From Serratia marcescens (lineage in GTDB: Bacteria; Pseudomonadota; Gammaproteobacteria; Enterobacterales; Enterobacteriaceae), in contig NZ_JARVZZ010000001.1 in assembly GCF_029846115.1 (NCBI RefSeq), positions 4,216,001 through 4,280,000 on the forward strand: a stretch of 64,000 bases of DNA. Direction: 5' to 3'. The position numbers were made by a program, and so were the translations under genes. Below the pieces are notes generated by a model. That model was not told the origin of the DNA. It made no database searches and saw only the letters and a list, made by a program, of their open reading frames with translations. The first letter of the stretch is position 1. Each line of letters starts with the position of its first letter. This document shows positions 9,473 to 49,772 of the stretch, piece after piece.

Positions 9473-9776
9473 GGTGGCGATGTCCTGTCCAGAGTGCGTG
9501 ACGATACCTACAGAGGCATCTTTCTGTATGCTCAGAATTTAAAAACGAGTCAGCACTGGCCAGGCCGCACAGCGAGTATCTAAATATTCGTTTAGCGAGG
9601 CAATTTTTGTAATTTGAATTATTAGTCAGCGCATCGGCAAGAAATGTGTCGAAGTGTTATTTGAATGAGGAACTGTTGCAGTGCGTAAAAATACCGTGAA
9701 TGGCCGCAGCGCCGCCGCTTGGCATTGATGGGGTTTTGTTATAACGTATCAGAACTTAAGCCAAAGGAAGACGACG
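9473..9776. other. Intergenic region between the WaaZ-like gene and a small secreted peptide gene
   Basis: 304 bases of roughly balanced composition, AT-rich in the middle. It must hold the promoters for the minus-strand LPS pair and the plus-strand peptide gene. AAGGAAG at about 9762-9768 is the ribosome site of the latter. I see no other ORF with a ribosome site and no strong hairpin. Confidence 0.5.
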
Positions 9777-10019
9777 ATGAAAATCCAGCTGTCGCTGCTG
9801 TTTCTCAGCCTGCTGGCCGGCAAGGCCGCGGCGTTTCAGTCAAAAGTGTCCGAACCGCGCCCGGAACAGGCGCGCGCGGCGGAACAAAACATCGAAAATC
9901 TGTTTTACGGCTTTCACGCCATGGACGCCCAGCCGGTGAACATCGGCAGCTGCGCGGCAGTGCCGGTAGCGGGATGCCAATGCGCGTTCTGCACCCAGCT
10001 GCGGCAGGCCGGGCGTTGA
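9777..10019 (+). CDS. Small secreted cysteine-containing protein, unknown
   Basis: 80 residues. The N-terminus is a clear Sec signal peptide (MKIQLSLLFLSLLAGKAAA, cleavage before FQS). The mature part is about 61 residues with FYGFHAMDAQPVNIGS followed by a cysteine cluster CAAVPVAGCQCAFC and a basic tail. AAGGAAG sits about 8 bases before the ATG. Four cysteines in 14 residues suggest disulfides or metal binding after export. I do not recognise a family. It stands alone, convergent with alaX 11 bases on. Confidence 0.65.
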   Translation: MKIQLSLLFLSLLAGKAAAFQSKVSEPRPEQARAAEQNIENLFYGFHAMDAQPVNIGSCAAVPVAGCQCAFCTQLRQAGR

Positions 10020-38564: not shown

Positions 38565-39289
38565 CGGCTCTCGGGGGCGATTTCCCCCAGGCGGATCGCC
38601 ACGCTGATCGCCTGCGCGGTGGTGGCGGCGCCAAGGCGCTGGCGAATGCGCCGCAGGTGGTTTTCCACCGTGCGTTCAGACAGGCCGAGCATCGCGGCGA
38701 TATCCGCCTGCCGCCGGCCGATGGCGGTCCAGCTCAGCACCTCGCGCTCGCGCGCCGACAACCGCCCCTCTCCCTCGCCGGCCGCCGGTGCGAACAGCCG
38801 CCGCGCCGCCTGAAAGGCCGCCGAGCCTACGAGCGACAGCGCCAGCCGCACCGGCGGCGAGGCATCGATGCGCTCGCCCCCCAGGCTGACGGCGCCCTCC
38901 AAACCGGCCGGGCCAAATATCGGGATCTGCACGCCGTGCAGGCCCGCGCCGCGCGGCGTGCGCACAATCCGGTAGCGCTCGCCCTGCTCCGCCCAGGTTT
39001 TGGTCCAGAAAAACGGCTCGCTGACCCGCAGCATATGCCGGGTCACCGGGCAGTGCCGCACGTAGGTCAACGCATCGACGGCCTCGCCGTCGCCGAACCA
39101 GTCGCCCTCGACCCAATAGATATGCTCGATCCCCGCCTCCGCCGCGGCGGAAGCGGAAAACAGCACAAAGCGATCGAAGCCGAACGGCGCGGCGAAGGCG
39201 CGAACCCGCCCCTGAATGGCGGACAGGGTTCGCTCGTGGTCCATCGCCAGCGCCGCCTGGAAAGCGCGCTGTGCGATCTCGTCGCTCAT
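38561..39289 (-). CDS. LuxR-family regulator with autoinducer-binding-type domain (LuxR solo)
   Basis: 242 residues. The N-terminal 160 resemble the PF03472 autoinducer-binding fold ([46 protein letters not shown]), and the C-terminus is a canonical LuxR helix-turn-helix ([31 protein letters not shown]). Aligned with TraR, the acyl-homoserine-lactone-contacting Asp70 is Cys80, while the next Pro and a Trp (W95) are kept. No luxI gene adjoins. It overlaps the hchA stop (ATGA), so the two are one operon. Confidence 0.75.
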
Positions 39290-40161
39290 CGCGCGGCGAC
39301 GTCGGCCAACAGCGTCTCCGCCGCCAGCTTGCCGAGGTTGTTGGAGGCCAGCGGGCTGTCGCCGGTCAGCAGGCGCCGATCTTTATGCACCTTGCCGGTG
39401 ATGTCGGCGTTGACGATCTTCACGCCCCGCTCGCGCAGGCGTTCGCCCACCAGCCAGGGCATCGGGCCGGGGATGTAGCCGATGTCGATGTTGGCGCCGG
39501 TATCGAGCGAGTCCGGGAACACGCACATTTCATAACCGCGATAGAGGAAATCGTCTTTGCTCTCGCCGATACCCGCCGCCAGCAGGCCCGCCGGCCCGTG
39601 GCACAGCGAGATCACGTAGCGATCGTTGTCGTGCGCCCAGTGCAGGGTCTTTTTCACCTCTTCGCTGAACGGGATATCATTGAGCACGCCGTGGCCGCCG
39701 GGGATGAAAACGCCGAGGTAGTTGCCGCCGTCCAGATCCTTCACCACCTCCGTCAGCTTTTTCGGCTGCTTGAGTTGGCTGCGGTACTTCTCGTAGGTGG
39801 CCTTGACCGCGTCGTCTTCCTGCGGGAACGCCCACATCTCCAGCTTCACCGGATCGCCGGACGGCGTGGCGATGTCGATCTCGAAACCGGCCAGATCCAG
39901 GTGATACATCGGTAACAGCATCTCGACCGGGTGGTTGCCGGTAGAGAAGAACTTGCCGTTTTGCATCAGCAGGTAGCGCTCCTGCGAGGCGATCATCAGC
40001 ACCTTCCACTTGCCGCCGCGATAGGCGTTCGGGTAGCTGGCGCCCGCGAAGTCGGTTTTGGACGAGGTGTACTGGCTGAGGGAGTAAGGCGATGGGAAGA
40101 ACGCGTTGTCTTCCGCCACATCCGGGGTGGGATTACGATCGTTGGACACTGAATCAGTCAT
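39286..40161 (-). CDS. hchA: Glyoxalase III / Hsp31 chaperone HchA
   Basis: 291 residues, DJ-1/PfpI superfamily. It converts methylglyoxal to lactate without glutathione and has protein deglycase or holdase activity in E. coli. [36 protein letters not shown] and [24 protein letters not shown] match E. coli HchA; the nucleophile is C187 in [13 protein letters not shown] precedes the ATG at 40161 (MTDSV). It is co-transcribed with a LuxR-type regulator, an arrangement not found in E. coli as I recall. Confidence 0.93.
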
Positions 40162-40225
40162 GATTATCTCCATATTCACCGTTACGTTGCCCTTTCAGCT
40201 TAAATAACCGCCGGCGGGGCCGCAA

Positions 40226-40241
40226 TGAGGGATATCCCTCA
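40226..40241. promoter_or_regulatory. Perfect 16-bp palindrome upstream of hchA
   Basis: TGAGGGATATCCCTCA, 65 bases before the hchA start codon and just after the ABC ATPase stop codon. Its position and symmetry make it a candidate operator, possibly for the LuxR-type protein encoded downstream. Confidence 0.5.
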
Positions 40242-40262
40242 AGCAATCTTTGCAGCCGAAAC

Positions 40263-41030
40263 TCAGGCGAGATTGCGCAGAGCGATAATAAAGGTTTCTT
40301 CGCCGGCGCCCTGGTGTTCATAGTGGCACTTTCTTACCGGCACCCGAAAATAGCGCTCCAGGATATCTTCCCGCAGCACAGCGCTTTTAACGCCAAACAA
40401 CGACTGCCGTTTTGTCATCAGTAAACACTTGTCGGAGATGCGTTCGGCGTAATTGAGGAAATGCGTATTCAGCACGATCGTCATCTGCCGCTCTTTGGCG
40501 AGGCGCCAGAGCATCTCGATCATTTTTGCCTGATTGTAAAAATCCAGGTTCGACTCCGGTTCATCAAGGATCATGACGTCAGGATCTGCCATCAGCGCCT
40601 TGGCGAAATAACACATCTGCAGTTCACCGCCGCTGATCTGATCGATGCTTTTCTGCGCCAACGGGCCGATTTCCAGGGATTGCAGCACCGCCTGCGCCCT
40701 GGCGAAATCGCGCTTTCCCGGCCGGGCGAACAGTCCGGCCTGACGAACGCAGCCGAAAGTGACAAACTCGAGTACGCCATAGGAAAAATGTGGCGCCTTC
40801 GCCTGCGGCACATAGGCCAGGCGTGCCTCTCGATTATCGACGCGGCCGATCTCGCACCAGCCGGCGCTGGGCCGACACAGGCCCGCAATATTTCTCAGCA
40901 GCGTCGTTTTGCCGGCGCCGTTCGGGCCCAGCACGCTGAGGATCTCGCCGCGCTTAAGCTCGAAGCTGACGTTGTCGAAAATGGGCTCCCGCCCTTTGAA
41001 ACCAAAGGATAGCCGGCTAGCGGTGATCAT
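40263..41030 (-). CDS. ABC transporter ATPase, FepC/FecE type
   Basis: 255 residues. Walker A GPNGAGKT (35-42), signature ISGGE (132-136), Walker B VMILDEP (152-158) and switch His190 are all present. It should power import of a metal chelate through the FecCD-type permease encoded just upstream. The ATG at 41030 overlaps the permease stop by 14 bases. Last gene of the MFS-lipoprotein-binding protein-permease-ATPase operon. Confidence 0.88.
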   Translation of the reverse strand: MITASRLSFGFKGREPIFDNVSFELKRGEILSVLGPNGAGKTTLLRNIAGLCRPSAGWCEIGRVDNREARLAYVPQAKAPHFSYGVLEFVTFGCVRQAGLFARPGKRDFARAQAVLQSLEIGPLAQKSIDQISGGELQMCYFAKALMADPDVMILDEPESNLDFYNQAKMIEMLWRLAKERQMTIVLNTHFLNYAERISDKCLLMTKRQSLFGVKSAVLREDILERYFRVPVRKCHYEHQGAGEETFIIALRNLA

Positions 41031-42033
41031 ATCGATTACCCATAATAAAAAGCGTGGCGAAAAGCGGCGCACCGATCAGCGCGGTCAGGATGCCGATCGG
41101 GATTTCTGCGTAGGTGGCGCCTCTGGCGATATTGTCTATCACCAGCAAAAACAACGCCCCGCTCAGCGCCGAGGCCGGGATCAGGCGGCCGTGGTTATAC
41201 CCCAGCACGCTTCTCACCAGATGCGGGATCACCAAGCCGACCCATCCCACCACGCCGGCCAAACTCACCGAGGCGGAAACCAGCAAGGAGGCGGCGATCA
41301 GCAGCAGGATCTTCAACCGGGGCGGATTCAGGCCGGCAATGCGCGCCTCGTCATCCCCCAGCGAGAGAATGTTCATTTTCCATCTGAGCCGATAGATTGT
41401 CAGGTAACACGCCGCAAACAGCGGGATTAGCCAATAGACCTGCGCTTTCGCTACCGAAGCGAAGCTGCCCATCAGCCAGAAGACGATCGCCGGCAAGGTA
41501 TCCTGCGGATCGGCGACATATTTTATGACCGAGACAAACGCGATAAACAACGACGCGATAATCATGCCGGACAGGATCGTCGTCAGCGCATCCTGCCGGC
41601 GTTTCAGGCGGCAGATGCCGAGCACCAGCAGCAGGCTCACCACGCCGAAAAGAAACGACAGCATGGCACTCAGGGCAAAAGGCAAACTCAATAAAATGCC
41701 CAGCGCAGCGCCAAAGGCGGAGGCGGAAGACGTGCCCAGCACATCCGGGCTGGCCAACGCGTTTTTCAGCACCGCCTGAAAGGTCGCGCCGGCGACCGCC
41801 AACCCACCGCCCACCAGCATCACCGCCACCACCCGCGGCGCACGCAGGTTAAAAATCACCGAATAGCGGGCCTGGTTTTCCCCCGGCATGTTCCCCTGCC
41901 ATAAAATCTGCACCACATCATGGGCCGACAAGGCGTAGCGGCCGGCAAACAGTGATGCGACGGCGACTACACACAAGGCCAAAAACAGCCCCACCAGGAT
42001 CGCCACATATTTTCCTCTGCCCGGCATCCCCAA
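41017..42033 (-). CDS. FecCD-family ABC permease
   Basis: 338 residues with about ten membrane helices. GGGLAVAGATFQAVLKNALASPDVLGTSSASAFGAALG and SLAGVVGWVGLVIPHLVRSVLGYNHG, then IPIGILTALIGAPLFATL, are textbook FecCD/BtuC motifs. It forms the homodimeric membrane pore for siderophore, heme or cobalamin-type substrates. It is 37 bases downstream of the binding-protein gene. Confidence 0.92.
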   Translation of the reverse strand: MGMPGRGKYVAILVGLFLALCVVAVASLFAGRYALSAHDVVQILWQGNMPGENQARYSVIFNLRAPRVVAVMLVGGGLAVAGATFQAVLKNALASPDVLGTSSASAFGAALGILLSLPFALSAMLSFLFGVVSLLLVLGICRLKRRQDALTTILSGMIIASLFIAFVSVIKYVADPQDTLPAIVFWLMGSFASVAKAQVYWLIPLFAACYLTIYRLRWKMNILSLGDDEARIAGLNPPRLKILLLIAASLLVSASVSLAGVVGWVGLVIPHLVRSVLGYNHGRLIPASALSGALFLLVIDNIARGATYAEIPIGILTALIGAPLFATLFIMGNRYDHR

Positions 42034-42070
42034 GCTCCCCCCATTAAATGAATGCTATTCAACCGTGGCA

Positions 42071-43147
42071 CTAGCGCTGTGCCAGCACCTCATCCAGCAA
42101 CCGGTCCGGGATGGCATAGGAGAACATCGTCTGATAATAGCGGCGCGTCTCCTCCCGCAGCGTCTTGTCGCTAATGTCTTCAGGGGCATAGCGGTTGATC
42201 ATAAACAGCGGTAGCAGTGACGTTTCCGCCGACAGGCCCCCCCAGTTGTGAATGCCCACCGGCGTCGAGAAAACCTTGCCGTTTTTTACCGCCCTGAGCG
42301 TTTCCCAGGCCTGACCGGGGATCCCCCCGTGCAGCAGCGCTTTGGCGCTGCCGAAAACCACGAAAATCACATCCGGGTCCCAGGCCATGATCTGCTCCAT
42401 CGAAACGTTGATGTACCTGCCGGCATCCCCTTTCACCGGCAAATCCCCGGCGACGTTGTCCATGCCGGCCATTTTCAGGTAGGTGTCGCCGTAGGTATGC
42501 GGGCCACTCACCTTCAGCTGCCTGCCGTCACTTTCTTCGAGATACAACGCCCTGACGTGCTGCGCATGGATGGCTGCGGCATAGGGGCGGATCTGCTTCA
42601 GGGTCTTTTCCCAGGCGTCTTTGAATTTATGCGTGCGCGGCAGGCCGAGCGTGTCGGCGAACGTGTTCTCCCAATATACCTGGGTGGCCATCGGCTGGTA
42701 TTTTGTCTCCCCGCCGGCATCCAGATCGACGGTCATCACGCCCGCCCTTTCCAGCCGATCGTCCTGGCTTTTGCCGTAGTAATAAATAATGTCGGGCCGT
42801 AGATTCATTAACGACTCCATGTTGACCCGGTAGTCCTTATTGATGAAGGCGGAGGTTATCCTGCCGATGTCAGGCTTCATGTCCTTCAACACATGCCTAT
42901 CGGCATGCATGAACGCCCAGGGCCCCACGCCGACGACGTGCCGGTAGGCCGCCTCGTTCGCCAGGATCACGCCGAAGGGGCAGTTGCCGGTGATGACGAT
43001 CCGCGGGTAGCTGCCGGGCAGCGTTTGCGCCGCCACGCTTTGTGGCGGTTCGGCCGCCGCCGGCTGGCCGGCGGTGGCGCAAGGCGCCGTCGGCAAGGCG
43101 AATATTGCCAGCAGAGCAGTGGCGATAAATTTCACTGTGACGCACAT
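42071..43147 (-). CDS. Periplasmic metal-chelate binding protein (PF01497-type)
   Basis: 358 residues. The start at 43147 is set by AGGAGG 5 bases upstream and gives a signal peptide (VKFIATALLAIFALPTAPCATA). The mature protein has the two-lobed Fe-chelate binding-protein features: RIVITGNCPFGVILANEA, VGVGPWAF, MESLMNLRPDIIYYYG, MEQIMAWDPDVIFVV, and NGKVFSTPVGIHNWGG. Ligand unknown: siderophore, zincophore or another chelate. A longer in-frame N-terminus to 43384 is a shadow of the lipoprotein gene. Confidence 0.87.
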   Translation of the reverse strand: MCVTVKFIATALLAIFALPTAPCATAGQPAAAEPPQSVAAQTLPGSYPRIVITGNCPFGVILANEAAYRHVVGVGPWAFMHADRHVLKDMKPDIGRITSAFINKDYRVNMESLMNLRPDIIYYYGKSQDDRLERAGVMTVDLDAGGETKYQPMATQVYWENTFADTLGLPRTHKFKDAWEKTLKQIRPYAAAIHAQHVRALYLEESDGRQLKVSGPHTYGDTYLKMAGMDNVAGDLPVKGDAGRYINVSMEQIMAWDPDVIFVVFGSAKALLHGGIPGQAWETLRAVKNGKVFSTPVGIHNWGGLSAETSLLPLFMINRYAPEDISDKTLREETRRYYQTMFSYAIPDRLLDEVLAQR

Positions 43148-43193
43148 GGTGCCTCCTGTGCGCACGCTCGGCGGCGTGCGTCGATGGGCTGCT

Positions 43194-43592
43194 TTAGGCC
43201 GACGCGGCGATGCCGGCGGCCATGATGGTGATCCCGGCCACAAACACGATTGCCGTGGTGGCGACCGCGCCGCCGCCGACCAACGCGGCGGTTTTTCCTG
43301 TGGAAAGGTCTTTGCGTTGCAGGAAAGAGAGCTGCGACAGGGGAATGATTTTTCCGCTGTCGGCAACCAAGTCTTTCGGTTCAACCTTCGCCACCGTCAG
43401 CTCGCCGCCGCTGCCGTCCTTCAGACCATATTTCAATTGGTCGCCGACATAGACCGGCGGCTGCAGCAGGTAATATTGGCTATTGAGCCCCGTCTCTTTT
43501 TGTTGCAACGCCACGTCGTGGTAGGTCGTGCAGCCGGCAAGGGAAAACGCCGCCATCCCGATAATCAACGGCACTAATGGGATAAATCGCAT
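43194..43592 (-). CDS. Small lipoprotein, unknown
   Basis: 132 residues. Lipobox LAGC (Cys21) after a hydrophobic signal, a mature domain of about 75 residues (YYLLQPPVYVGDQLKYGLKD, ADSGKIIPLSQLSFLQRKD), and a C-terminal Gly/Ala-rich hydrophobic segment (residues about 103-132). Acidic/serine-poor sorting region would suggest outer-membrane sorting. It sits between the MFS and binding-protein genes (16 and 46 base gaps) in the candidate zinc locus. No family recognised. Confidence 0.7.
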   Translation of the reverse strand: MRFIPLVPLIIGMAAFSLAGCTTYHDVALQQKETGLNSQYYLLQPPVYVGDQLKYGLKDGSGGELTVAKVEPKDLVADSGKIIPLSQLSFLQRKDLSTGKTAALVGGGAVATTAIVFVAGITIMAAGIAASA

Positions 43593-43608
43593 GGGAAACC
43601 TCGTGCTT

Positions 43609-44979
43609 CTATTTGCTGGTTTTTAACGTAACGGCGGACTTGAAGCGCATATAGCTCACCACCAGAGAAAGGAACGAGAATGCCGCCCCCGCCATTAAAC
43701 TGATATTCGTCGCTTGCGCGCCCCGCATATTGAAGAAAATCGCCACTAACGCCGAACCGACGATTTGCCCAATCAGCCGGGAGCTGCCCAGCAGGCCGCT
43801 GGCGATGCTGCTGTTTTCATGGGAGACCGACGTCATGATCAGCAGGTTGTTCGGTGATTGAAACAGGCCAAAACCGATGCCGCACAGCGCCACGCGCCAT
43901 ACGATCGCCCCATTCGACGGATCGCTGGGCAGATTGGCCATCAGCAGCATGCCTGCCAGCAGACAGGCAAGGCCCGAGAGGGCAACAAGATTGGGATCGT
44001 ACTTCTTGGCCAAATCGCCGGAAATTAGCGAAGACGCCATGGTGGCCAGCGGCCAGGCGGTCAGCAACAGACCGATATCCACCACGTTTCTTTGCAGGAC
44101 ATTGTGGAAATAGAAAGGCAGCGATACAAAAGCCAAAAGCTGGGTGCTGTAGGACAGCATCGACATCAGCAAAGACAATGACAGCGTCGGGTTATGCAGC
44201 ATCGCGATCGGGATCAGCGCGGCGTTGGCCTTTCTTTTCTGATTGATATACAGCAACCCGGCCAGCCCGGCGAATACCGCAAAGCTGAGCGCCGCCGCCG
44301 GCAGATGGTGGGTGGTCATGCTCATGGTGCTGAGCGAGAAAGCGATGAACAGCACAAACACCAACAGGGCGCCCCCGCGGTCGAATCCAACGCTGCGCCG
44401 CTCGCGGGGGGCCAGGAAGATCAGGCTCAGCAGCAGCGACAGGCAGGCGATGGGAACATTGATGGTAAACAGCCAGTTCCAGCTCGTTTGCGAAAGTATC
44501 GCCGAGGCGATGGACGGCCCGGCGGCGGCGGAAACCGACACCACCATCACGTTTATGCCCAGGCCGCGCCCCAGCAGCCTTTCCGGGTATATCTCCTTGA
44601 TCAGCGCCGCATTGACGCTGAGCACCGCCGCCGCGCCGAAGCCCTGTATTACCCTGAATGCCGTCAGCATCGACAGCGTCGTGGACAGCGCGCAGCCCAA
44701 GGATGAAAAAGCGAACAGCACCACCCCGGCTATAAAGATCTTTTTATTGCCCACCGCGCGGCCCAGCGCCGCGAAGGGCATCAAAGAGGCAACGACGGCA
44801 AACTGGTAGGCATTAATAATCATGATGGAGGCCGATTCGGAAACGCCGAAATCTTTGGCGATCACCGGCAGCGCCACGTTGGCGATGGTACTGTCGAGCA
44901 TGGCGATGACCGTGCTTAACGAGACGGCGAGAACGGCGAATATATTTAATGTCTCTTTTTCCTGGTGTTTAAAAGTCAT
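43609..44979 (-). CDS. MFS transporter, DHA2/EmrB-like
   Basis: 456 residues, about 12-14 membrane helices. Motif LDSTIANVALPVIAKDFG in the first helix, AALGRAVGNKKIFIAG between helices 2 and 3, and FRVIQGFGAAAV are characteristic of the drug:H+ antiporter-2 group. First gene of an operon with a lipoprotein and a FecCD-type importer, so exporting a metallophore or importing a loaded one is plausible; simple drug efflux is the alternative. A Zur-like half-site box is 68 bases upstream of its ATG. Confidence 0.8.
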   Translation of the reverse strand: MTFKHQEKETLNIFAVLAVSLSTVIAMLDSTIANVALPVIAKDFGVSESASIMIINAYQFAVVASLMPFAALGRAVGNKKIFIAGVVLFAFSSLGCALSTTLSMLTAFRVIQGFGAAAVLSVNAALIKEIYPERLLGRGLGINVMVVSVSAAAGPSIASAILSQTSWNWLFTINVPIACLSLLLSLIFLAPRERRSVGFDRGGALLVFVLFIAFSLSTMSMTTHHLPAAALSFAVFAGLAGLLYINQKRKANAALIPIAMLHNPTLSLSLLMSMLSYSTQLLAFVSLPFYFHNVLQRNVVDIGLLLTAWPLATMASSLISGDLAKKYDPNLVALSGLACLLAGMLLMANLPSDPSNGAIVWRVALCGIGFGLFQSPNNLLIMTSVSHENSSIASGLLGSSRLIGQIVGSALVAIFFNMRGAQATNISLMAGAAFSFLSLVVSYMRFKSAVTLKTSK

Positions 44980-45046
44980 GTTAACGCTCCAAAAACGTGA
45001 GTGGCTTCATGCCGGCGGCAAAGACCCCGTTTTTTATCCGTTTTAG

Positions 45047-45063
45047 TAATTACGTTATAACAT
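45047..45063. promoter_or_regulatory. Weaker Zur-like site before the MFS-ABC operon
   Basis: The right half TATAACAT (45056-45063) is a perfect Zur half-site; the left half TAATTACG matches only partly. It lies 68-84 bases upstream of the MFS start codon. Confidence 0.4.
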
Positions 45064-45264
45064 ATCAATTAAAGAGGAGAATAAATCTCATTTGAAATAT
45101 TGGATTAAATAGTGTGTCAAAATAAGAATTAACAAATACAAAACAAATAAATATCAATACGAACATTCAATAAACAAAATAAATGCAGTATAAAAAACCA
45201 GTTGATTTAAGGAATGACATTAAAAGTAACAGCCGCTAACAGACAACCTCGCCGGCGCGTAAAT

Positions 45265-45281
45265 TTGTTATGTTATAACAA
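45265..45281. promoter_or_regulatory. Strong Zur-like box before amiA
   Basis: TTGTTAT-GTT-ATAACAA is a perfect 7-3-7 palindrome. Its 13-base core differs from the enterobacterial Zur core GTTATA-N-TATAAC, as I know it, at one position. It ends 17 bases before the amiA ATG, where a bound repressor would block transcription. Confidence 0.65.
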
Positions 45282-45298
45282 TAACACCCTTCCCTTTT

Positions 45299-46144
45299 AT
45301 GCTGGTTACCCTTATGGCTAAGACGGACTTTTTGAACACCCGGTTATCTCGCCGCAGAATGATGTTGGCAGGGCTGGCAACCTTGGCGCTGAACGGCGCC
45401 ATTTCCCCGCTGGCTCACGCCCACGGTTTGCCGCGCCCCACACCTCACGGGGCGCGAAAAAGATTCCTGGTCATGTTGGATCCCGGTCATGGCGGCATCG
45501 ACTCCGGTGCCATTGGCCACACCGGTTCACTGGAAAAACATGTCGTTCTGGAGATCGCCAGAAATGTGCGTGCACAGCTCGATCGACACGGCATCGATGC
45601 CCGCCTGACGCGCGACAGCGACGTTTTTATTCCACTTTACGATCGGGTGGAGATCGCGCACCGGCATGGCGCGGATCTTTTCATGTCCATCCACGCCGAC
45701 GGTTTTACCTGCCCCAGCGCCTGCGGCGCTTCGGTTTTTGCGCTTTCCAATAAAGGTGCCAGCAGCGCGATGGCAAAATACTTATCGAACAGTGAAAACG
45801 CGGCGGACGATCTCGCCGGCCCTAACGTCATCAAGAAAGACCGCTATTTGCAGAAGATACTGTTTGATTTAGAGCAGACGGAAACGATCAAAGAAAGCCT
45901 GGCGCTGGGCTCACACCTGATTCAACATATTGCGCCCATCCATCATTTGCATGCCAAAAATACCGAACAGGCGGCCTTCGTGGTCTTAAAGTCCCCGTAT
46001 ATTCCTTCCGTTTTGGTGGAAACCTCTTTCATCACCAACCCTGAGGAAGAAAAGCTGCTCGGCACTCCCGCCTTCCGAAATAAAATTGCCACGGCGATCG
46101 CTCAGGGGATCGTCAGCTACTTTAAACGCGAAACGCACGCTTAA
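45299..46144 (+). CDS. amiA: N-acetylmuramoyl-L-alanine amidase AmiA-type, Tat-exported
   Basis: 281 residues from the ATG at 45299, or 276 from the ATG at 45314; neither has a clear ribosome site. The twin-arginine signal is LSRRRMMLAGLATLAL. The amidase_3 domain is very similar to E. coli AmiA: zinc ligands H64 (DPGHGG), E79 and H132 (SIHADG), and catalytic E241 (VLVETSFI). It cleaves the amide linking peptides to glycan during daughter-cell separation. Unlike E. coli amiA, which neighbours hemF, this gene follows a Zur-like box and precedes a porin, so it may be a zinc-regulated second copy. Confidence 0.9.
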   Translation: MLVTLMAKTDFLNTRLSRRRMMLAGLATLALNGAISPLAHAHGLPRPTPHGARKRFLVMLDPGHGGIDSGAIGHTGSLEKHVVLEIARNVRAQLDRHGIDARLTRDSDVFIPLYDRVEIAHRHGADLFMSIHADGFTCPSACGASVFALSNKGASSAMAKYLSNSENAADDLAGPNVIKKDRYLQKILFDLEQTETIKESLALGSHLIQHIAPIHHLHAKNTEQAAFVVLKSPYIPSVLVETSFITNPEEEKLLGTPAFRNKIATAIAQGIVSYFKRETHA

Positions 46145-46155
46145 GCTTCGCCGGG

Positions 46156-46179
46156 GCGGCAAGCTCACGGGCTTGCCGC
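46156..46179. repeat. Hairpin between amiA and the porin gene
   Basis: A 9-base perfect stem GCGGCAAGC / GCTTGCCGC with a 6-base loop and no T tract, 12 bases after the amiA stop codon. It may protect or process the transcript, or attenuate expression of the porin. Confidence 0.5.
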
Positions 46180-46198
46180 GCACAGGGACGGTGCCATC

Positions 46199-47251
46199 AT
46201 GATAAAACGCAATCCTCGTTATTTTTCGGCGGGCATGCTTTTCCCCCTGCTGGCCTTGTTACCGCGCGGCGCCTTCGCCGTGTCGTTGACGGGATCGCAG
46301 CAAAACAGCCTGAATTTCTACGGCACGATTATCGCCAGACGCTACAGCGGCCACAACGAACGCGACGACGGCGACCGCAGCTACCTCTATTTCGGCCTGA
46401 TAGGCAAAAAAAAGATCGCGCCGCGCTGGCGGGCCTACGCCCACTGGGAATATACCGTCAGCTTCGCCGACGCGACGCGCAACAGCACCCGGCTCGCCTA
46501 TATCGGCGTGCAAAACGCCGCCCTGGGCAGCCTCGATATCGGCCGCAACTGGGGCGTGCTTTATGATGTGACCGCCCTGACCGATCGCTCTCCGCTGTTT
46601 AGAGAGATGGCCTACAACTACATCGACAACTTTATGCGCGGCCGGGCGCATAACCTGCTCACTTACCGCCAACCTTTCAGCCTGTTTCAGCGGCGCGCCG
46701 CCATCGCGCTGCAATACCAGTTCAAAGACGGCGACGAACGGCAAGCACCGGGCAAACAAAACGGCAACGGATTCGGCGCCTCGTTCCGTTATGCGCTGAC
46801 GCCGACGCTCAGCCTCATCGCCGCCGCCTCGGCGTCTCAAACCACGCAGCGGCAGCAACACGCCGCCGGTTATCGCCGGCGCATCGACACGCTGGCCGAA
46901 GGGGTTCTCTATGCGTCGAAAAAAATCTATCTTGCAGCCGTGTTCACCCAAAGCGACAACGCCATCAGCCCGCAACAAACCGCTAACCGCGGTTCGGCGT
47001 CAAGTTACGAAGCGCTCGCCAAATATCGGCTGACGGACCATATCCAACCCAACATCGGCTACACCCGTTTGATACAGGCCCGAGCAGGCCGGAACACGGA
47101 CTTATTGAACTATGAGGAGTTGGGGGTCACCTGGTTGCTCAACGGCAATATGCAGGTGTTCATTAACTATGAATTCAATAACCTTTCGCAGCACGCGCCC
47201 GGCGTCGATGCGTCAGACAAGCTCGATATGGGCATCAGCTATCATTGGTGA
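46199..47251 (+). CDS. Outer-membrane porin (OmpC/OmpF superfamily)
   Basis: 350 residues with a Sec signal peptide ending GAFA. The mature protein has alternating hydrophobic beta-strands, SLNFYGTI at the first strand, IGRNWGVLYDVTALTDRSPLF resembling the constriction loop L3, and a C-terminal aromatic residue (GISYHW) as the assembly signal. It is 54 bases behind amiA and probably co-transcribed. In the candidate zinc locus it could admit zinc or a small chelate; no TonB-dependent receptor is present. Function inferred from context. Confidence 0.8.
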   Translation: MIKRNPRYFSAGMLFPLLALLPRGAFAVSLTGSQQNSLNFYGTIIARRYSGHNERDDGDRSYLYFGLIGKKKIAPRWRAYAHWEYTVSFADATRNSTRLAYIGVQNAALGSLDIGRNWGVLYDVTALTDRSPLFREMAYNYIDNFMRGRAHNLLTYRQPFSLFQRRAAIALQYQFKDGDERQAPGKQNGNGFGASFRYALTPTLSLIAAASASQTTQRQQHAAGYRRRIDTLAEGVLYASKKIYLAAVFTQSDNAISPQQTANRGSASSYEALAKYRLTDHIQPNIGYTRLIQARAGRNTDLLNYEELGVTWLLNGNMQVFINYEFNNLSQHAPGVDASDKLDMGISYHW

Positions 47252-47271
47252 TCCGCTCGCCCGCAGCCAAT

Positions 47272-47300
47272 AAAAAGCCCCGCCCGGTAAGGGGCGAGGC
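47272..47300 (-). terminator. Rho-independent terminator of the esterase gene
   Basis: On the minus strand GCCTCGCCC pairs with GGGCGGGGC (one G-U), followed by TTTTTA. It lies between the convergent porin and alpha/beta hydrolase genes and may serve both. Confidence 0.7.
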
Positions 47301-47317
47301 TCGCGAGCGTTGAGTCT

Positions 47318-48148
47318 TTAACTGTTCACGAACGCCAGCAGATCGGCGTTGACCTGATCGGCATGGGTGGTCGGGATGCCGTGCGGCGCGCCCTTATAGG
47401 TATGGAGCGTGCCGTTTTGCACCAGCTTGGCCGACAGCACGCCGGAGTCCTGATAAGGCACCACCTGGTCGTCGTCGCCGTGGATCACCAGCACCGGAAT
47501 GGCGATCTTCTTGAGATCCTCGGTGAAATCGGTCTGCGAGAAGGCGACGATGCCGTCGTAGTGCGCCTTGGCGCCGCCCATCATGCCCTGGCGCCACCAG
47601 TTCCAGATGATCGCCTCAGACGGTTTGGCGCCCGGGCGGTTATAGCCGTAGAACGGGCCGGCCGGCACGTCGTAATAGAACTGCGCCCGGTTGGCGGCCA
47701 GCTGCGCCTGGAAATCATCGAACACCGCTTTGGGGGTACCCTGCGGATTGGCGTCGGTTTTTACCATCAGCGGCGGCACCGCGCTGATCAGCACCGCTTT
47801 GGACACCTTGTCCTCGCCGTGGCGCACGATATAGCGCACCACCTCGCCGCCGCCCGTCGAGTGGCCCACGTGCATCGCGCCCTGCACGCCCAGGTGTTTT
47901 ACCACCGCGGCGACATCATCGGCGTAGTGGTCCATGTCGTGCCCTTCCGACACCTGGCTGGAGCGGCCGTGGCCGCGGCGATCGTGCGCGACGACCCGGA
48001 ATCCTTTGTTCACGAAGAACAGCATCTGGGCATCCCAGTCATCGCTGGACAACGGCCAGCCGTGGTGGAAGTAGATAACCTTGCCGTTTTTGGGGCCCCA
48101 ATCCTTATAGAAAATCTCGACGCCATCGCTGGTCGTTACGTAACCCAT
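47318..48148 (-). CDS. Alpha/beta hydrolase, cofactor-free haloperoxidase/esterase type
   Basis: 276 residues. Nucleophile S97 in GHSTGGG, Asp in IHGDDDQVVP, and His in KGAPHGIPTTH form an intact triad; AHDRRGHGRS and the N-terminal FYKDWGPKNG are typical of non-heme chloroperoxidase-like esterases. GGGAG is 8 bases before the ATG at 48148, so the longer frame to 48334 is rejected. A paralogue at 60603-61433 lacks the serine. Divergent from the aldehyde dehydrogenase gene. Confidence 0.85.
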   Translation of the reverse strand: MGYVTTSDGVEIFYKDWGPKNGKVIYFHHGWPLSSDDWDAQMLFFVNKGFRVVAHDRRGHGRSSQVSEGHDMDHYADDVAAVVKHLGVQGAMHVGHSTGGGEVVRYIVRHGEDKVSKAVLISAVPPLMVKTDANPQGTPKAVFDDFQAQLAANRAQFYYDVPAGPFYGYNRPGAKPSEAIIWNWWRQGMMGGAKAHYDGIVAFSQTDFTEDLKKIAIPVLVIHGDDDQVVPYQDSGVLSAKLVQNGTLHTYKGAPHGIPTTHADQVNADLLAFVNS

Positions 48149-48347
48149 GTTGTTTCTCCCATTTACACTATGGTTAAAAAAGAAGGTATATACTGCGCGC
48201 GGCGCCGGGATCTCTGGCTCCCTCATCCCGGTTGGCCGACGATCTTGCGTTGATCGTTTAACGAGTATAGGTTTAAAGCTCACTTTAAGGTCAAACCGGG
48301 TTAGGCAAACCGCATTCCCGCTTTCACTCGGCATCAGGAGAATTCAA

Positions 48348-49772
48348 GTGCAGGGAGATGACATCCTCATGACGCTGGAGCAACGGCTTGCCGCCCAACG
48401 TCATGCCTTCCTGCGCGACGGCGCACCGACGATCGCTCAGCGCAAAACCGCCCTGCGCCGCCTGCGGAGCGCCATTTTGGCCGAGCGCGGCGCGCTGACG
48501 GCGGCCGTCAGCGCAGACTTCGGCCACCGCTCGCCTTACGAAACCGACATCCTGGAGATCCTGGTCACCGTGCAGGCGATCGATTATCTGCTGCGCCACC
48601 TGAAGCGCTTTATGCAGCCGGAACGCCGCCACGTCGCCCTGCCGTACCAGGCCGGGCGCGCCTATGTGCAATACCAACCTAAAGGCGTGATTGGCGTCAT
48701 GGCGCCGTGGAACTACCCGTTTTCGTTGACCTTCATCCCGCTGGCCACCGCCCTGGCCGCCGGCAACCGCGTGATGCTGAAACCTTCGGAGCTCACGCCG
48801 CGCACCAGCCAACTCATCGAAACGATGCTGGCGGCGCTGTTTCCCGCCGATGAGGTCGCGGTGGTGACCGGCGGGCCGGACGTCGGGGCCGGGTTCAGCA
48901 CGCTGGCGTTCGATCACCTGGTGTTCACCGGCAGCACGGCGATCGGCCGCCAGATCATGCAGGCGGCCGGTAAAAATCTGGTGCCCTTGACGCTCGAGCT
49001 GGGCGGCAAAAGCCCCGCCGTCGTGGCGCCCGGCGCGCTCACCGCCAGAACCGTTAACAGCCTGGCGTTCGGCAAGCTGTCGAACGCGGGCCAAACCTGC
49101 ATCGCACCCGATTACCTGTTGATCCATCAGGACGATGTGGAAAACTTTATCGCGCTCTACGACGCGGCGGTCAAAGCGTTTTACCCCGACGGGCCGACGA
49201 GCCATGACTACGGCGCCATCATCAACGACAGGCACTACCACCGTTTGCAGGATCTGCTCACCGACGCCCAGGCGCGGGGCGCGCGGATCGTTCCGGTGGG
49301 CCACCGCCCGGACTCGGCGGCGGAACGGCCGAAAACCCTCGCCCCCACGCTGATCGTCAGCGCCCCCGACGACAGCCGAATCATGCAAGAGGAGATCTTC
49401 GGGCCGCTGCTGCCGATACGCACCTACGCCGCCTTTGATGAAGCGATCGACGTTATCAACGCCGGACCGCGCCCGCTGGCGCTGTACTACTTTGGCCCAG
49501 GCGGCCCCCTGCAGGACAGGCTGCTGACGCGCACCACCTCCGGCAACGTCAGCGTCAACGCCACCCTGCTGCATTTTGCCCAGGACGATCTGCCGTTCGG
49601 CGGCATCGGCCCCAGCGGTATGGGGGCCTATCACGGCATCGAAGGATTCCGGGCGCTGAGCCACGCCAAGGGCGTCTTCATCCAAAGCCGCTGGCACTTC
49701 ACCGATCTGCTGCGCGCACCGTTCGGCAAGCTGGCGGACACGGTGCTCAAGGTGATGCTGCGGCGCCGATAA
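48348..49772 (+). CDS. Aldehyde dehydrogenase (coniferyl-aldehyde type)
   Basis: 474 residues. It oxidises aldehydes to acids with NAD(P)+. GVMAPWNYPFSLTF, FTGSTAIGRQIM, catalytic Glu in LELGGKSP and catalytic Cys in SNAGQTCIAPDYLL are all present, and the short C-terminus fits the class 3/CALDH group. An AGGAG at 48336-48340 lies 7 bases before a GTG at 48348, which I take as the start; the ATG at 48369 is possible. Divergent from an esterase, so ester cleavage followed by aldehyde oxidation is conceivable. Confidence 0.87.
   Translation: MQGDDILMTLEQRLAAQRHAFLRDGAPTIAQRKTALRRLRSAILAERGALTAAVSADFGHRSPYETDILEILVTVQAIDYLLRHLKRFMQPERRHVALPYQAGRAYVQYQPKGVIGVMAPWNYPFSLTFIPLATALAAGNRVMLKPSELTPRTSQLIETMLAALFPADEVAVVTGGPDVGAGFSTLAFDHLVFTGSTAIGRQIMQAAGKNLVPLTLELGGKSPAVVAPGALTARTVNSLAFGKLSNAGQTCIAPDYLLIHQDDVENFIALYDAAVKAFYPDGPTSHDYGAIINDRHYHRLQDLLTDAQARGARIVPVGHRPDSAAERPKTLAPTLIVSAPDDSRIMQEEIFGPLLPIRTYAAFDEAIDVINAGPRPLALYYFGPGGPLQDRLLTRTTSGNVSVNATLLHFAQDDLPFGGIGPSGMGAYHGIEGFRALSHAKGVFIQSRWHFTDLLRAPFGKLADTVLKVMLRRR

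Follow-up and report, generated by a model that had tools for sequence, protein, structure and literature searches.

We analysed a 64,000-nucleotide stretch of the Serratia marcescens genome (C1:4216001-4280000 of 5.22 Mb; hereafter the window), which carries a locus of seven genes arranged as two divergent operons around a 319-bp AT-rich control region with predicted boxes for the zinc-responsive regulator Zur (Table 1). Outward from the control region, the left operon encodes a major facilitator superfamily (MFS) transporter, a small lipoprotein, a periplasmic binding protein, a FecCD-type permease and an ATPase, and the right operon encodes an AmiA-type amidase, here named AmiA2, and then a porin. 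All seven genes, their divergent arrangement and the 319-base spacer were located as claimed in a preliminary description of this DNA, which had been made from the sequence alone. The start of the ATPase gene was picked by its overlap with the permease gene and by matches in relatives. The block is flanked by hchA (474.7 bits; cut-off 365) and an alpha/beta hydrolase gene, and no Rfam family was found at gathering score within 39000-49000.

Table 1. Genes and predicted sites of the locus, with positions in the window
Feature	Position	Strand	Support
ATPase of the chelate ATP-binding cassette (ABC) importer	40263..41030	-	PF00005, 87.5 bits
FecCD-type ABC permease	41017..42033	-	PF01032, 275 bits
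Periplasmic chelate-binding protein, narrow Enterobacterales family	42071..43147	-	PF01497 (Peripla_BP_2), 66.3 bits
Small lipoprotein without known family	43194..43592	-	No Pfam or NCBIfam match
DHA2/EmrB-like MFS transporter	43609..44979	-	PF07690, 164 bits; TIGR00711 under cut-off
Predicted Zur box of the MFS-importer operon, CGTTATAACATATCA, 2 mismatches	45053..45067	.	Matrix, shuffles, conservation
Site corresponding to the Fur-like box of relatives; at chance level in the window, with 4 mismatches	45076..45090	.	
Predicted Zur box of the amidase-porin operon, TTGTTATGTTATAACAA	45265..45281	.	Palindrome, genome matches, matrix
AmiA2, predicted AmiA-paralogue amidase with twin-arginine motif and zinc ligands	45314..46144 (alternative start 45299)	+	NCBIfam AmiA, 439.6 bits (cut-off 400)
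General-porin family protein with altered constriction loop	46199..47251	+	PF00267, 161 bits

Predicted Zur boxes at the locus and across the genome

The preliminary description had noticed a perfect palindrome before the amidase gene and a partial site before the MFS gene, and had read both as Zur sites. We found the palindrome TTGTTATGTTATAACAA to have perfect 7-base arms (TTGTTAT and ATAACAA) around a 3-base centre (GTT), and to end 17 bases before the amidase start at 45299 or 32 bases before that at 45314. The partial site, CGTTATAACATATCA, is separated from the MFS start by 73 bases. None of 1000 base-composition shuffles of the 319-bp region reached an equally good match, and the exact 17-mer occurs twice in the whole genome. 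A stringent pattern, TGTTATRNTATAAC, gave 7 forward and 5 reverse matches, which correspond to 8 distinct places genome-wide, whereas the same pattern read backwards gave none on either strand. A 15-base form with up to 3 mismatches gave 273 + 281 matches against 256 + 269 in the control; since this is not above control, weak copies of the box mean little when taken alone.

One of the eight stringent places is the present locus (4261266). At 3630894 the box precedes genes for FolE2 (294 bits; cut-off 215), for a protein that resembles carbonic anhydrases but stays below all cut-offs, and for ZigA (673.5 bits; cut-off 600); at 2031933 it precedes the gene for a type-B ribosomal protein L31 (118.7 bits; cut-off 86). 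The place at 2028751 lies in front of a metal ABC importer; the best score of the importer's binding protein, 277.8 bits, is with the zinc protein AztC and falls short of the cut-off of 350. Perfect boxes precede cysS (2099277; L041 6278; 636.9 bits, cut-off 340), which encodes the zinc enzyme cysteine--tRNA ligase, and a group of genes for a TonB-dependent receptor, a Peripla_BP_2 protein and a methyltransferase (2238728; L042 5729-9732). The box at 2308258 (L043 6258-9041) is followed by genes for an ATPase, which was assigned by eye, and for a Peripla_BP_2 protein and a FecCD permease. The last place, 3994123 (L045 6123, L080 3122), lies just after an azoreductase-like gene, at a point where a small RNA or a small unrecognised gene is possible.

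A weight matrix trained solely on three zinc-gene sites of the same genome (those of FolE2, L31 and the metal ABC importer) ranked the amidase-side site first (30.6) and the MFS-side site second (21.6) in the 64-kb window; such a scan had been suggested in the preliminary description. The genome encodes zur (NF008646, 324 bits against a cut-off of 167) and also fur (259.7 bits against 146). Within the genus sample the stringent motif was present in 27 of 30 genomes, and the reversed pattern gave one match in total; the three genomes without the motif (G681, G682 and G684) are each 3.6 Mb or smaller. Together, these results make it very probable that Zur controls both operons: each has one predicted box, and the boxes match those at zinc-related genes of the same genome.

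Two further observations came from these scans. On its other side, the box at 3630894 (L044 5895) faces a divergent oligopeptide-type ABC importer with an SBP_bac_5 binding protein, which is the importer type of several zincophore systems. In the window, a third matrix site at 9733-9755 (listed at 9737) scores 21.1, close to the MFS-side site, and ends 25 bases upstream of an 80-codon frame (9777-10019, + strand). The product of this frame is probably secreted, has four cysteines near its C terminus and belongs to no Pfam family; a search returned 32 proteins including its own, and those with a named organism are all from Serratia.

Spread of the locus and features of its proteins

We compared 16 loci, of which 12 are chromosomal (that of the window, nine from other Serratia, the full set from the genus sample, and two from other genera) and four lie on plasmids. 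The amidase, porin, MFS, binding protein, permease and ATPase genes keep the same order in 12 of 12 chromosomal loci, and the MFS protein, binding protein, permease and ATPase were matched together in all 15 loci other than the window's. In all 11 other chromosomal loci, both operons are preceded by a Zur box within 2 mismatches. The gene set and the motif recur in other Enterobacterales, where the preliminary description had proposed to look for them. When eight of the 12 chromosomal intergenic regions were aligned, the longest invariant runs fell at the boxes (13 columns that overlap the MFS-side box, 8 that lie within the amidase-side box), followed by a run of 7 columns (TTTGAAA) at 45091.

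A tblastn search of plasmids returned 79 records, five of them at 60-80% identity (Enterobacter mori twice, E. hormaechei, E. cancerogenus and Klebsiella variicola); four of these five are the plasmid loci L056-L059. Here the MFS, binding protein, permease and ATPase genes are divergent from the gene of a different porin, with the amidase gene beyond it. All four plasmid loci have a single Zur box, on the MFS side, with 0, 2, 1 and 0 mismatches, and none has a second box within 2 mismatches. The four plasmid records are typed non-mobilizable, yet a TraM gene lies about 7-8 kb from the cluster.

The locus is narrowly distributed. At an E value of 1e-120 or better, the MFS protein was found in 5 of 295 genomes of the family sample (its own included), from three Serratia and two other genera; at 1e-60, the binding protein was found in 2 of 394 genomes of the order sample, both Serratia. 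A search with the binding protein returned 27 proteins including its own, 22 of them at least 58% identical and the next at 30%; the organisms named for the group at 58% or more are Serratia, Klebsiella, Salmonella, Yokenella and Hafnia. Sixteen of the 27 entered the alignment together with the window's protein, and a contig scan, made with the single protein and not with the alignment, yielded 3 loci only, from S. bockelmannii, S. marcescens and S. ureilytica. The lipoprotein was matched in the nine other Serratia loci and in one other genus, and was unmatched in the second genus (L073) and the four plasmids. Its search returned 11 proteins including its own, the named ones from Serratia; one protein is distant, at 49%, and no family was found for the lipoprotein.

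Among the 20 genus genomes without the binding protein, nine have an hchA match. In G672 hchA directly adjoins the hydrolase gene and in G661 it directly adjoins katG; in G669 it stands beside a short hydrolase match and the next flank gene, and in G668 and G671 the hydrolase lies about 1.2 kb away. In G665, G666, G667 and G674 none of the probed flank genes lies within 1.5 kb of hchA. The clearest of these cases suggest that the 7-kb block is present or absent as one piece.

The genome encodes four amidases of this type: AmiA2, an AmiA that is 67% identical to it (C1:4624553), and two at 48% and 41%, which we took for AmiC and AmiB. In a tree of 29 rows, the AmiA2 copies (five from Serratia, two from other genera and two from plasmids) form a group of their own with support of 100/99 and the other AmiAs fall outside it; a first tree, with one faulty row, gave 99/96. 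These trees cover the AmiA2 of 7 of the 12 chromosomal and 2 of the 4 plasmid loci. Of 34 amidase matches, four AmiB without a locus and the AmiC of L108 and L106 stayed outside the trees, and the AmiB of L114, in the wrong frame in the first tree, is absent from the second. The zinc ligands, which we take to be His64, Glu79, His132 and Glu241 (numbered from 45299), are kept in all 9 aligned AmiA2 of the 16 loci. A twin-arginine motif is present in the seven chromosomal AmiA2, and the two plasmid rows do not cover this region. Of the candidate starts, ATG 45314 has a counterpart in G663 and ATG 45299 in the near clade.

By sequence, then, the amidase is a dedicated AmiA paralogue and not the housekeeping AmiA of the cell. 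The second AmiA, 67% identical, rules out AmiA2 as the only AmiA, and the kept ligands rule out an amidase that lacks a zinc site. Because the ligands are kept and a separate housekeeping AmiA is encoded, a spare zinc enzyme fits better than a zinc-free substitute. The zinc-dependent amidase for times of zinc scarcity that the preliminary description had envisaged is thus consistent with the ligands, and is refined to a probable spare paralogue beside the housekeeping enzyme. The five aligned Serratia AmiA2 also share a cysteine pair, CPSAC, just past the zinc ligand in SIHAD (window 45710-45724, residues 138-142); in the two other genera a histidine replaces the second cysteine, and housekeeping AmiAs have neither.

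An AlphaFold2 model of the binding protein has a moderate mean predicted local distance difference test score (pLDDT) of 76. Its nearest folds, at template-modelling scores (TM-scores) near 0.6, are Veillonella 4ovk, YiuA, CeuE and MolA, among them Yersinia ruckeri YiuA with iron and Helicobacter pylori CeuE with Ni-histidine, and a sequence profile gave a similar list. The moderate model and the variety of its matches, which span binders of iron, nickel-histidine, molybdate, heme and B12, do not allow the ligand to be named; the folds indicate a class, metal chelate or oxyanion. Among solved structures EmrB is the closest to the MFS protein, which is probably an exporter. No metallophore biosynthesis gene was seen at the locus, in agreement with the preliminary description.

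A putative zinc-starvation island and its alternatives

We propose, with a probability of roughly 0.7, that the locus is a zinc-starvation island, namely a unit for chelate traffic joined to a back-up amidase. With ample zinc, Zn-Zur would sit on the one box of each divergent operon and keep both off; when zinc is low, both would be expressed. The left operon would move a small metal chelate. Its FecCD-type ABC importer, together with the dedicated binding protein, would bring the chelate in from the periplasm, while re-export of the chelator or its spent metal-free form would fall to the EmrB-like MFS protein. The chelator may be a product of genes elsewhere in the genome or be acquired from other organisms. 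The porin would add an outer-membrane path for small solutes of the chelate kind. AmiA2 would act as a back-up cell-wall amidase whose export in folded form by twin-arginine translocation (Tat) allows zinc loading inside the cell, so that amidase activity is kept up while periplasmic zinc is scarce. In this form the reading retains the earlier idea of a zinc-starvation response that couples uptake to envelope change, which the Zur boxes, the gene set and their conservation support, and drops the suggestion of a porin that replaces a receptor.

Several observations weigh against this proposal. The MFS-side box of the window carries 2 mismatches, and weak matches are frequent genome-wide. No sigma-70-like promoter was found in 44900-45400, where shuffles averaged 1.8. 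No clear target gene lies downstream of the stringent box at 3994123, and the only box of plasmid locus L057, with 2 mismatches, was equalled in 13 of 1000 shuffles. The locus is patchy, with the binding protein in 10 of 30 genus genomes. The solved relatives of the MFS protein are mostly drug exporters. The opine-metallophore dehydrogenase family PF10100 is absent from the whole genome (a nicotianamine-synthase-like gene was not searched for), and the family occurs in 8 of the 30 genus genomes (L081-L088), 4 of the 10 with the locus and 4 of the 20 without (p = 0.38). In the genus, then, this dehydrogenase does not follow the locus. Finally, the plasmid amidase match is split in two in E. cancerogenus and incomplete in K. 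variicola, and in the K. variicola plasmid the MFS gene (by annotation) and the permease gene are each in two pieces. With a plasmid porin that differs as well, the unit is not intact everywhere.

These plasmid loci favour a looser reading, in which Zur controls the locus but the importer, a drug-type pump, the back-up amidase and the porin are separate answers to zinc stress that share a control region. It is a possibility that we rate on the unlikely side. The plasmids carry, in place of the porin, a protein that has no Pfam match (2 of 4 tested), two of the four records have an apparently broken or partial amidase, and the lipoprotein is unmatched there and in one other genus; in other bacteria, Zur-controlled amidases and importers occur separately (PMC6103462). 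What speaks for a single unit is that the six genes keep their order in every chromosomal locus, and that the clearest genomes lacking the locus miss the whole block.

The MFS-side control region of many relatives also holds a second type of site. A Fur-like site adjoins the MFS-side Zur box in 8 of the 15 other loci, with 1-2 mismatches to the Fur consensus TGATAATNATTATCA, which we compared with genome counts and with places near iron genes. Its first base lies 23 bases from that of the Zur box in chromosomal loci and 21 bases in plasmids, and L057 offers a second, equally good register. The site has 1 mismatch in L070, L071, L056, L058 and L059 (a match reached by 0 of 1000 shuffles), 2 in L072, L073 and L057 (8 to 19 of 1000), 3 in L054 and L055 (84 and 86) and 4 in the window, L053 and L074-L077 (410 for the window). 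This predicted box of relatives is an addition to the Zur-only picture that the preliminary description had drawn of the importer operon. On the simplest reading of these sites, the import-export operon was once under Zur and Fur and the Fur site was lost in the clade of the window; a gain of the Fur-like box in the other loci is the possible alternative. Our proposal would accommodate this with an ancestral operon that was probably also iron-responsive through the adjacent Fur box, of which the window's clade keeps the Zur box only.

A rival account would have the importer operon serve iron as much as zinc, through a mixed-metal chelate and with Zur as one of two inputs; we hold this to be tentative and rather unlikely. 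Staphylopine gives a precedent for one carrier of several metals, and the eight loci with 1-2 mismatches (L056-L059 and L070-L073) would fit. In these genomes the Fur pattern greatly exceeds its control; in the window's genome, with up to 2 mismatches allowed, the pattern has 63 places and the control 6. Six perfect places were looked at in two relatives, and the neighbours of three of them are a TonB receptor, suf genes and an Nramp transporter. YiuA with iron is among the nearest folds of the binding protein. However, in the window and five near relatives the site is at shuffle level, it has 3 mismatches in two more loci, and the other three perfect places showed no obvious iron gene among the 10 of 29 frames tested around the six.

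The porin invites a different alternative. A porin is present in 16 of 16 loci, though of a different kind on plasmids, where two copies had no Pfam match and one had no match among PDB sequences. All seven aligned locus porins (of the 12 chromosomal) share the loop TDRSP[LF]FRE[MI]; the window's protein reads TDRSPLFREM, at the position of TDMFPEFGGD in PhoE and of TDVLPEFGSD in an ordinary porin of G152. Acidic residues in the constriction loop favour cations in general porins, and a loop without the usual acidic residues would therefore point to neutral or anionic solutes. The preliminary description had suggested, from the lack of a receptor gene, that the porin may replace the receptor. 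On this reading the porin stands in for a TonB receptor, and the cluster would form a complete path, with no receptor of its own, for the uptake of a small zinc chelate that diffuses freely, for instance a complex with an amino acid or an organic acid. The loop would suit an anionic chelate, and the porin is kept in every locus even where its kind is swapped. No TonB receptor is found among the annotated genes around the window's locus. The incomplete gene tables of the four plasmid records show none up to 9 kb away, and the search covered these five loci. The Zur-controlled porin MspD is reported to contribute to zinc homeostasis in Mycobacterium smegmatis (PMC13098993). Nevertheless, we consider replacement of the receptor improbable, and the claim unsupported, because the same genome encodes a TonB-dependent receptor with a binding-protein gene behind the perfect Zur box at 2238728. 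General porins, moreover, already let small solutes through. The receptor at 2238728, with its Peripla_BP_2 gene, may itself be the partner of a zinc chelate at the outer membrane, and the Zur box at 2308258 precedes a second FecCD-type importer.

Another regulator acting at the palindrome, or an AT-rich repeat that arose by chance, is very improbable: the assignment to Zur comes from a consensus match, but the same palindrome stands at well-known kinds of Zur target in this genome, the reversed control gave 0, shuffles did not reach it, and it is kept in 11 of 11 chromosomal relatives.

A more speculative picture, which we regard as doubtful, would extend the zinc-starvation proposal: the locus would be a self-contained and portable island for zinc scavenging, carried by chromosomes and plasmids in several Enterobacterales genera, and would handle a foreign or unlinked metallophore without a TonB receptor. 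The porin would admit the chelate, the FecCD importer would take it in, the MFS protein would return the carrier and the amidase would adjust the wall; ancestral control would have been by Zur and Fur, re-tuned to zinc alone in the window's Serratia clade.

Relation to known zinc-responsive systems

If the zinc-starvation proposal holds, the Enterobacterales Zur regulon would gain a dedicated amidase, a porin and an orphan pair of chelate transporters, and a single locus would tie zinc hunger to changes in the peptidoglycan and the outer membrane. The pairing of a Zur box with a Fur-like box that fades in one clade would offer a natural series for shifts of a metal-carrier system between iron and zinc control, and the narrow binding-protein family a concrete handle toward the discovery of zinc carriers. 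The open-access literature searched, judged mostly by titles and the openings of abstracts, held no description of this gene set or of a Serratia Zur regulon; single components have precedents, and the bundle is without a description found there. For E. coli, the Zur regulon is given as znuABC, zinT, rpmE2, rpmJ2 and pliG (PMC6103462).

Zur-controlled amidases as such are already known from Pseudomonas and Xanthomonas (PMC2770081, PMC6103462). In the Zur regulons compared here, those of Pseudomonas aeruginosa, P. fluorescens/protegens and Xanthomonas campestris, a Zur-linked N-acetylmuramoyl-L-alanine amidase with zinc-binding residues is reported, as at the present locus (PMC2770081, PMC6103462, PMC11753293), with amiA or amiC listed for P. 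aeruginosa, P. protegens and X. campestris (PMC6103462). According to one of these sources, Zur-linked AmiA paralogues keep the zinc-binding residues, and a higher copy number is suggested (PMC2770081). P. aeruginosa amiA is reported to be induced by low zinc, its mutant to colonise Galleria less well, and Tat export of the zinc-loaded enzyme is proposed to secure amidase activity (PMC11753293). These regulons, like the genome studied here, hold folE2 and a COG0523 protein, in Pseudomonas also an L31 paralogue and a carbonic anhydrase, and likewise further importers and TonB receptors. As described there, P. aeruginosa AmiA is a homologue of E. coli AmiC (PMC11753293), whereas AmiA2 is predicted to be an AmiA paralogue; unlike the Pseudomonas gene, it adjoins a porin gene and faces a pump-importer operon.

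Other parallels concern the wall and the outer membrane. ShyB of Vibrio cholerae and the znu-linked endopeptidases are, like the proposed role of AmiA2, peptidoglycan hydrolases under Zur control in zinc starvation, and such an endopeptidase gene is reported next to znu in Serratia marcescens and others; ShyB is an endopeptidase and not an amidase, and the passages cited tie it to neither a porin nor an exporter (PMC6381278). Zinc-dependent control of OprD is described as running via CzcR, not Zur (PMC10393844). A parallel to the locus porin exists in mycobacteria. The porin concerned, MspD, and the mycobacterial envelope are unrelated to the locus porin and its envelope. Like the locus porin, MspD of M. 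smegmatis is an outer-membrane porin, and its induction by zinc starvation and by loss of Zur is reported (PMC13098993).

The left operon has its closest counterparts among metallophore loci. Opine zincophore loci include FecCD-type importers in some cases, and the network in which they are described names Serratia marcescens (PMC7438024). The staphylopine locus cntKLMABCDFE of Staphylococcus aureus combines an MFS exporter with an ABC importer, as the present locus does, and is reported to be under Zur and Fur (PMC7594338). Unlike cnt, the locus has no biosynthesis gene seen in it and lies in a genome without PF10100, and it is Gram-negative and includes a porin and an amidase; its Fur-like box is at chance level in the window's clade and has 1-2 mismatches in eight other loci. 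By analogy, a pump and a chelate importer under predicted Zur and Fur control would resemble metallophore operons such as cnt.

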